From contig DYJL01000009.1 in NCBI GenBank assembly GCA_020723105.1, forward strand, positions 1 to 64,000: a stretch of DNA of 64,000 nucleotides, given 5' to 3'. The position numbers and the translations under genes were made by a program. Each line of letters opens with the position of its first letter. Within the stretch, counting starts at the first letter, position 1. Below the pieces are notes generated by a model. It saw only the letters and a program-made list of their open reading frames with translations. It had not been told where the DNA came from and searched no databases. This stretch comes from Nitrospira japonica. GTDB taxonomy: Bacteria; Nitrospirota; Thermodesulfovibrionia; UBA6902. Shown here in pieces: positions 3,344 to 48,860 of the stretch.

Positions 3344-4369
3344 TCACTCTATTACAATCTTCCCTTTTCCCTTTTGTACTTCTCCAATAATCCAGTAAGA
3401 CATTTTTTCTTTTTTTGCAACGTTATCAAATTTTTTCAATCCTTTTGACGGAAGCGCAATGAGCAGGCCGCCGGATGTTTGCGGATCAGACAGGATAAGC
3501 TGTGCCTCTTTGGGAAAGTTTACAGGAAATATTACATCCCTGCTGCAAAAAACAAAATTCCTGTGCGCCCCCTTTGGCGCCAGACCCAATGCTGCATATT
3601 TTCTTACGCCCTTCATCAAGGGCACCTTATCATAGGAAATCACAAGGTCTGCTCCTGAGCTTTTTGCTATATTTAATCCGTGTCCCAACAAACCAAACCC
3701 AGTAACATCGGTTGCAGACTGTGCTCCACACATGACAGCAGCTTTTGATGCCGTCTTATTAAGTTTCAGCATTGACGCAACAACCTCTTTCAAAGCATGA
3801 TTTTTCAGCTTGCCGCGTTTATATGCAGAAGTAATAATACCTGTACCGAGAGGTTTTGTGAGAATAAGGATATCTCCTGGTGAAGCCCCATCTGTCTTTA
3901 AAATTGTTTTTGTTTCAATTATGCCTGTTACTGCAAGACCAAATTTAAACTCATTATCTTCAATGCTGTGTCCGCCGATAAGACAAGCGCCTGCTTCTTC
4001 GAGTTTATCAATACAGCCTTTTAAGAGTTTTTTAATTACCAAAGAGCTGAAATCACAGGACGCAAAACCCAATATGGCAAGGGCTGTAAGAGGTATTCCC
4101 CCCATAGCATATACATCGCTTACCGCATTTGCAGCGCATATAGCTCCAAATGTATAAGGGTCGTCAACAATAGGGGTAATAACATCTACAGTTTCAACTA
4201 ACAGCGTGTTATTGTATCGGAATATGCCCGCATCGTCACCGGGGCCTACCACAACATTTTTGTTTTTACATCTGTAGATATCCGCTAATATCTCCGATAG
4301 GTCCGCCGGACCTAACTTTGCCGCTCAACCGCCTGCTTTTACTTTTTCTGTAAGCTTGATGTTTTTCAT
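3344..4369 (-). CDS. selD: Selenide, water dikinase (Sec-containing)
   Basis: Makes selenophosphate from selenide and ATP, the selenium donor for Sec-tRNA and selenouridine. Reading from the ATG at 4367-4369 gives 341 residues with an in-frame TGA (4325-4327) as codon 15, in the context GGU-AAK. The TGA occupies the known catalytic Cys/Sec position and is followed by the catalytic Lys18. Downstream come the GPGDDAGIF nucleotide-binding motif (about 42-50) and the GGHSIEDNEFKFGL segment typical of SelD. Starting at the internal ATG (4252) would lose the active site. No selA, selB or tRNA-Sec lies in the window, so the rest of the pathway must be elsewhere. Confidence 0.95.
4298..4314 (-). promoter_or_regulatory. 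Candidate SECIS hairpin in selD
   Basis: Starting 10 nt after the selD TGA, the mRNA can form a perfect 7-bp stem, TAGGTCC/GGACCTA, with a GGC loop. Bacterial SECIS elements lie just downstream of the UGA inside the coding sequence. Position and strength fit, though the loop is shorter than in the E. coli fdhF element. Confidence 0.5.
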
Positions 4370-47413: not shown

Positions 47414-48634
47414 ATGACTCTTTCTGAATATCTTTATGAAAACTTTTACAGGAAAAACTTTACCAGGACATGGTCCAAATTGCGAGGAGGGGTATTATTG
47501 GCATTTTTAAATATTCTGCTGTTCTTATTCTTAATGCCGATAGGCGGAGTATATCCAGCAATGGCAGACTGGGGCATCTGGTTATACAGGCTTGCAGGAA
47601 TAAATATTCAGCCGCCGTGGGGCACTTTGGAATTGCCGCATTTGAGCATAATAAGTGTGTTGAATTTCGGTTTAATACTGGGTTTTTTTTCATCAGCGCT
47701 CTTAACCAGGCAATTCAAGGTCAGAAAAGATACCATTTCCGGATATGCCCAGGGATTTATCGGAGGGGCGTTCATGGGCATAGGCAGTTTTCTGGCCGGC
47801 GCCTGTATTATAGGCGGTTTTTATTCAGCAATTATGTCCTTATCATTAAGCGGGTTCTATATGATGGCAGGTTTACTTATTGGCGGATATTATGGTGGAA
47901 AAATGTTGATGTGGCAGGGGCGCAAAAAGGCTGAAAAGCTGATAGCTGAAATTAGAATAGTGCCAAAAAGTTCAGTCGGGATTGAGAAAGAATACAAATC
48001 CAGGCAACCAGCAATAGGGATTCTCCTCACGATTATTCTGGTCGCTGCATCTTCAATTTATTTCTTAGCGGGGAAGAATCTACATGGAGGGATAATGCTT
48101 TTTGGCGCGGCCTTTGGCCTTGTCATTCAAAGGTCTGCATTTTGCCTTTGTGGTGCATTCAGAGAAGTGTTTACAACAAAGAAGAATGAAACCATGCGTT
48201 CCCTTATGATCAGTCTTGTAATAGGAGTCATCGGATTTACTATTATTAAGGCAAATGGATTCCGGCCTGCAGATATGTTTGTTCTTCCGGCAGGCTGGCA
48301 CAGCGTTATCGGAGGGGCCCTATTCGGGTTTGGCATGGTCATAACCGGAGGTTGAGCAGTTGGAATTATCGGCAGGTCTGCCGAAGGATATATCAGGCAC
48401 TGGTTTGCAGTTCTTGGAGCCATGCTTGTTGCAGGCTTATGGGTGCCGCTTTACGGTTCCCAGGTTGGAACCGGCAAGCTTTATGGAACACCTGTGTTCC
48501 TGCCCGATAAGTTTGGCTGGGGAGGGGCTTTACTCATCACTTTATCAATTATCATACTTTTTTATTTCTTTATTGCATGGATTGAGTTCAGAAAGAAAAA
48601 GGTCAGAAAGAAAGGGGGTGCAATAAATGGGTGA
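47414..48634 (+). CDS. YeeE/YedE-family transporter, predicted selenoprotein
   Basis: 406 residues when the TGA at 48353-48355 is read as Sec314. The preceding ITGG and following AVGIIGRS-type sequence match the GGC-A-G motif near the C-terminus of YeeE/YedE transporters, where the residue is Cys. Reading on adds two or more hydrophobic helices and ends cleanly at 48634. Multi-pass inner-membrane protein with other conserved Cys (GACIIGG, RSAFCLCGAF). Family members take up thiosulfate (YeeE) or are linked to selenium metabolism (YedE). The stop overlaps the TusA-like gene by 8 nt. AAGGAG precedes the ATG. Confidence 0.88.
48353..48395 (+). promoter_or_regulatory. Candidate SECIS hairpin in yedE
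   Basis: After the TGA, 15 nt lead into a stem that spans TCGGCA-GGTC-TGCCGA. The apical CGGCAGGTCTGCCG has the same AGGTCT loop core as the E. coli fdhF SECIS, where SelB binds, and its distance from the TGA differs by about one nt from fdhF. Strong support for Sec insertion rather than termination. Confidence 0.7.
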
Positions 48635-48860
48635 GCATTTTGAAGTAGATATAAGAAATACGATGTGACCATATCCAAAATATGTAATTCCACAAGTTTT
48701 GGAAAAACTTGCAAACGCAGAAAAAGGCACAGTAGTAGATGTCTTAGTTGACTGTCCATCTGCAATAGATGAAATACCAGGGATATTCAGCGGGGAAGGA
48801 TATACGGTAAATACAACTCAGATTGCCGATGGTGAGTACAGGATAAGGGCGGAAAAATAG
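48627..48860 (+). CDS. TusA/SirA-like protein, predicted selenoprotein
   Basis: 77 residues with TGA (48666-48668) as codon 14 in TM-U-PYPKYVIPQVL, exactly at the first Cys of the CPxP motif that carries persulfide in TusA/YeeD/YedF proteins. A second Cys remains (VDCPSA). Starts inside the end of yedE. In YeeE-YeeD pairs the TusA-like partner receives the chalcogen from the transporter. Here both partners would have Sec at the relay position. Confidence 0.88.

Follow-up and report, generated by a model that had tools for sequence, protein, structure and literature searches.

A probable SECIS hairpin in a yedE gene of a Thermodesulfovibrionia genome, and predicted selenocysteine in its TusA-like neighbor

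The hairpin that follows an in-frame TGA codon of the yeeE/yedE gene studied here (yedE1) is very probably a bacterial SECIS element, one that would be read by SelB for the insertion of selenocysteine (Sec) at residue 314. The gene lies in a 64,000-nucleotide stretch of DNA, referred to below as the window. Taken by itself, the hairpin is ordinary: SECIS elements and Sec-containing YeeE/YedE proteins are already known. Less expected is that the neighboring gene, tusA1, is a Sec gene as well, and that a sister cluster in the same genome reads yedE(Sec)-tusA(Sec)-dsrE(Sec).

The TGA codon of yedE1 and its hairpin

The features of yedE1 are as follows.

47414-48634, + strand: yedE1, encoding a membrane protein of the YeeE/YedE family (Sulf_transp, PF04143) if translated past the TGA at 48353
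48353-48355, + strand: predicted Sec codon of yedE1, TGA = U314; invariant Cys in Cys-YedE, and Cys91 in Spirochaeta thermophila YeeE/TsuA
48369-48384, + strand: probable SECIS upper hairpin of yedE1, UCGGCA-GGUC-UGCCGA, apical loop at 48375-48378, 19 nt after the TGA

The translated gene passes the gathering score of PF04143 (152.1 bits vs. a cut-off of 27), and its stop, the TGA at 48632-48634, overlaps the start of tusA1. Two points liken it to FdhT/YedE (NF033796): this is its best NCBIfam match, and a second yedE copy of the genome (paralogue 2) adjoins a Sec formate dehydrogenase gene. As assignments, we rejected both NF033796 (138.7 bits vs. a curated cut-off of 350) and YedE TIGR04112 (24.1 bits vs. 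200).

Across 230 genomes searched within the class, 18 yedE genes have TGA in this position; they are spread over nine genomes and, being kin, do not amount to 18 independent cases. The present genome holds three of them, on C88, C6 and C25, with the Sec motif GUAVG in yedE1 (the window copy) and GUVSG in paralogue 3. Cys replaces the TGA in 8 near homologues and in 67 distant ones, the latter from the other records whose match spans this position, and the codon at the site is TGC or TGT in all of the Cys forms. An assembly error or an isolated nonsense mutation can be dismissed, since the TGA is kept in 18 genes of nine genomes, and at a Cys position. When 395 genomes were drawn from the phylum, TGA forms appeared only in the family to which this genome belongs. 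Those relatives that have named records are MAGs assigned to Nitrospirae/Thermodesulfovibrionia, and subsurface or groundwater samples yielded several of them; deep-subsurface sites with relatives include SURF/DeMMO.

Could the TGA nonetheless be a true stop, in a pseudogene or a truncated YedE, or stand for an amino acid other than Sec? Table 11 does treat TGA as a stop, and termination there would still leave a 313-residue product. However, the approximately 92 C-terminal residues past the codon are conserved in the 18 genes with ordinary synonymous variation; the site is Cys, never Trp, in all homologues without TGA; and both selD and yedE1 end in TGA in an organism that possesses the Sec machinery (see below). 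We regard these alternatives as highly improbable.

A sequence-only reading of the window had placed GGTCT 19 nt past the TGA, on top of a CGGC/GCCG stem, and had likened it to the SECIS of E. coli fdhF. Indeed, GGTCT occupies 48375-48379, flanked by CGGC (48370-48373) and GCCG (48380-48383). RNAfold returned a 6-bp stem (TCGGCA/TGCCGA) closing a GGTC tetraloop, at -8.8 kcal/mol: a stable fold of the kind on which that reading depended. The hairpin conforms to every rule for bacterial SECIS elements restated in PMC13188914 (loop of 3–9 nt, stem of at least 4 bp, G at loop position 1 or 2, spacing of 16–37 nt, MFE of -7.5 kcal/mol or lower) and does not differ from that consensus, making it an ordinary member; yedE1 likewise shows the in-frame TGA with Cys in homologues that the bSECIS criteria call for. 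As a discriminator of Sec genes we rejected the structural rule, as about half of the distant Cys-yedE homologues (32/67) also pass it. At gathering thresholds, Rfam gave no match anywhere in the 64-kb window.

The resemblance to fdhF proved to extend further than had been claimed. The spacing was confirmed as similar: AGGTCT lies 17 nt from the TGA in fdhF vs. 18 in yedE1, and GGTC begins 18 nt (fdhF; L051, RefSeq genome) or 19 nt (yedE1) past it. The two genes have an identical 10-mer, GCAGGTCTGC, longer than the match first noticed, and RNAfold gave fdhF the same GGTC loop, closed as in yedE1 by an A-U pair. Given this 10-mer, E. coli SelB may accept the yedE1 loop as well. In fdhF, a different gene (for formate dehydrogenase H), a U bulges out beneath the loop and a lower stem is added, unlike the unbroken 6-bp stem of yedE1. 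The codon phases also differ (GCA GGT CTG C in fdhF, GGC AGG TCT GCC in yedE); therefore, protein homology does not account for the shared stretch. The 10-nt identity and the nearly equal spacing might still be taken as signs that the SECIS itself was inherited from a common ancestor or transferred. Yet the genes are unrelated and differ in phase, close yedE paralogues have CGGTCN and another stem register, the fdhA genes of this same genome build GGUC from codons other than those of yedE, and no graded intermediates between the fdhF and yedE hairpins were seen. Such descent or transfer is thus exceedingly unlikely.

Conservation of the loop and choice of codons

All 18 Sec yedE genes have GGTC at nucleotides 20–23 after the TGA; the 67 distant Cys forms never do. 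Sec homologues devoid of a similar hairpin would have counted against the sequence-only reading; among those found, none lacked the GGUC loop. The full AGGTCT is limited to the orthologues of yedE1 (L017-L019), and the remaining Sec yedE genes have CGGTCN. The proposal that a SelB recognition element is conserved in this organism is therefore supported for the GGUC core and not for the exact hexamer, which a survey of the other Sec genes of the genome likewise confined to the yedE1 orthologue group. Because the conserved core is GGUC only, the exact hexamer match to fdhF was partly the luck of an Arg codon.

The stems vary more than the loop. In the yedE1 group the arms are UCGGCA/UGCCGA; elsewhere they are CUC-N-GGC/GCC-GAG, or an unbroken CUUUGGC/GCCGAAG in L042 and L043. 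In most sister yedE genes one nucleotide, as a rule U, bulges out three base pairs beneath the loop, and the hairpin of L025 is weak (-5.9 in a 24-nt window). The same loop is thus closed by stems in different register: the loop holds its place and the stem changes around it.

How much of this would the protein sequence impose anyway? A TGA followed after 16–37 nt by a GGTC loop closed by at least 5 bp occurred 5 times in the window, vs. 5.7 ± 3.3 expected. Covariation gave no help: the stem of the yedE hairpin had no two-sided changes, its tally was not above that of shuffles, and its pairs hardly vary under the coding constraint. With lone TGA + GGTC hairpins at chance level and covariation absent, the case for a SECIS rests on the gene, codon choice and conservation.

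Codon choice bears on the notion that the hairpin is incidental, i.e., that the R-S-A-E-G motif alone yields GGTC and a stem while Sec is decoded via some other downstream structure. It is true that 27% of synonymous recodings contain GGTC and that Cys homologues often have hairpins of like energy. However, when 15 codons of yedE1 were recoded synonymously 20,000 times, merely 0.2% of the recodings gave a GGTC-loop hairpin as stable as the observed one, and the figure was 0.2–1.5% across four different yedE paralogues or orthologues. Residues 321–329, the hairpin codons, show the least synonymous variation in the whole gene. Ala323 is GCC in 18/18 Sec yedE genes, though GCC makes up 24% of Ala codons, and Arg321 is CGG in 15/18, though CGG makes up 10% of Arg codons. 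Finally, in near Cys homologues that have W-R-T/S-A-E-G, the letters are AGGAC or AGGTC and a matching stem is missing (L032 has the GGTC letters). We consider an incidental hairpin very unlikely, and favor a SECIS whose loop letters would be set by codon choice, namely AGG/CGG-TCN for Arg-Ser and GCC for Ala. The RNA signal would thus be embedded in the conserved R-S-A-E-G motif.

Selenocysteine decoding and the other Sec genes

The organism decodes Sec. Its genome contains a tRNA-Sec (74.5 bits), SelB (343.6 bits vs. a cut-off of 242) and, directly upstream of SelB, SelA (judged from the translated sequence beside selB), along with a SelD that is itself a selenoprotein:

3344-4369, - strand: selD (selenide water dikinase), with a Sec codon of its own, TGA at 4327-4325
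4298-4314, - strand: predicted SECIS of selD, UAGGUCC-GGC-GGACCUA, loop 17 nt after the TGA

Across the family, 25 Sec selD genes retain the GGC loop, and two of these have GGCCC in the 5' arm. In two relatives (G221:C8:4547-9372 and G224:C360:604-4134), an additional, divergent tRNA-Sec lies near an additional Sec selD that is divergent too, as if two Sec-decoding systems were present.

The mechanism of Sec insertion by SelB and SECIS is known from E. coli. SelB of the present genome aligns with E. coli SelB (5lzb) over residues 6–621, a span indicating that the C-terminal, SECIS-binding part is present. By analogy, SelB with Sec-tRNA(Sec) would bind the GGUC apical loop of yedE1 via its C-terminal winged-helix domain as the ribosome nears the TGA, and Sec would be delivered at U314 instead of termination.

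The sequence-only reading had suggested folding the region after each TGA. Among the nine Sec genes examined, six have the GGUC loop: two fdhA, three yedE and tusA2, a TusA-like gene downstream of yedE2. GGUC is not used in selD (GGC), tusA1 (GGA) and dsrE (GUGC), whose loops have GG or GU. If all of these are SelB targets, SelB here must tolerate more than GGUC. The two formate dehydrogenase hairpins, GUUGCC-GGUC-UGGCAAC and GUAGCC-GGUC-UGGCUGC (L131 and L132; G000:C6 and C86), lie 18 nt after the TGA, and resemble the Moorella fdhA SECIS that was crystallized with SelB. The tusA2 hairpin is CUCCAU-GGUC-AUGGAG. In dsrE, the loop is CGUGCA, or GUGC in L058. A GGUC loop for SelB is thus kept across unrelated genes of one genome regardless of codon phase, with the stem register free. 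Sec genes beyond the window were looked for family by family; FlpD/MvhD of this genome was also checked for Sec and is not a Sec gene.

The TusA-like neighbor and a candidate selenocysteine relay

The gene that overlaps the end of yedE1 has these features.

48627-48860, + strand: tusA1, gene for a TusA/SirA-like small protein (PF01206), read through the TGA at 48666-48668
48666-48668, + strand: predicted Sec codon of tusA1, U14; UPYP replaces CPxP at the catalytic cysteine
48693-48711, + strand: putative SECIS of tusA1, CAAGUUUU-GGA-AAAACUUG, loop 32 nt after the TGA

Its product passes the gathering score of PF01206 (43.3 bits vs. 28.6), and the TGA is kept in 4 orthologues, from four genomes of the genus. 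The putative SECIS is weak (-5.2 kcal/mol), and the global fold (-9.5 kcal/mol) pairs other bases. We prefer the GGA hairpin solely because of the block of conserved codons in which it sits: nine codons without change among 4 species, while 46 of the gene's 69 degenerate codons do vary (invariant block, P = 1.4e-5; longest-run permutation, P = 0.0009). No tusA was found in viral contigs.

The sister cluster (L049 1492-2096 on G000:C6, also L055-L058) runs Sec fdhA, yedE2(Sec), tusA2(Sec), a dsrE-like gene (Sec), DsrE/F-like, DsrH-like and Pyr_redox_2. TusA2 was rejected as a member of PF01206 (24.7 bits vs. 28.6; motif UIPP) and is called TusA-like only; it was not seen in some relatives. The TGA of dsrE, within the motif UGGC, is kept in five genomes. 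For the Pyr_redox_2 gene, the best NCBIfam match was NF049943, "SQR, selenoprotein subtype"; a fragment scored 46.5 bits against this model, well short of its cut-off.

What might these proteins do? Cys293, Cys91 and Cys22 of Spirochaeta thermophila YeeE have been described as the cysteine path of thiosulfate, and the catalytic cysteine of its partner, YeeD, sits in a CPxP motif (PMC11073785). Our alignment to that YeeE, from which the residue numbers derive, equates U314 with Cys91, C131 with Cys293 and C244 with Cys22. With U314 at Cys91 and the UPYP of tusA1 at CPxP, Sec would occupy two of the four path positions in the window pair: in the YeeE/YedE transporter it would take the middle cysteine of the path, and tusA1 would supply a TusA-like partner with Sec at the catalytic CPxP cysteine. 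Judging by these sequences, the products of yedE1 and tusA1 probably import and pass on sulfur or selenium species.

Neither YedE nor DsrE is new as a selenoprotein. Sec YeeE/YedE (PF04143, GUxSG, WP_012471001.1) is listed in PMC13188914 and PMC9312934, and Sec-DsrE (UxxC) in the 2026 catalogue PMC13188914. The present proteins belong to the same Pfam family as WP_012471001.1 and have Sec at the same G-U-x-x-G site; they differ in that three Sec paralogues occur in one genome, of a Thermodesulfovibrionia clade, and in that the window copy reads GUAVG where the listed motif is GUxSG. TusA, SirA, PF01206 and COG0425 have no entry in PMC13188914, TusA and SirA are absent from the deep-Sep paper (PMC12013277), and NCBIfam has no matching Sec-TusA model. 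Sec-TusA may therefore be a new selenoprotein family, with a prior account possible in Haft and Tolstoy 2025 or Haft 2022. The gene order around paralogue 2, yedE-tusA-dsrE-dsrF-dsrH-Pyr_redox, is like that of the YTD cluster, or yeeE-tusA-dsrEFH type II (PMC13293266). In contrast to that cluster, yedE, tusA and dsrE here carry in-frame TGA codons; selenium is unmentioned in PMC13293266.

Adjacent Sec genes thus sit at successive steps of a relay that is elsewhere cysteine-based (YeeE-TusA-DsrE). We lean, by a slight degree, toward the reading that in this Thermodesulfovibrionia family the whole chalcogen relay has turned to Sec, comprising YedE (the Cys91 site), a TusA-like acceptor (CPxP) and the DsrE-like carrier of the sister cluster (UGGC), with Sec-TusA as a new family. 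If so, YedE-TusA-DsrE would form a Sec-based sulfur- or selenium-transfer chain, and the question of why selenium is used in the relay, be it for reactivity, selenium selectivity or reversibility, becomes testable.

At the position of C244, the g7 and g10 genomes have a residue other than Cys. In the Sec-YedE proteins L022-L024, from two other genera, the equivalent of Cys22 is lost and Sec is kept.
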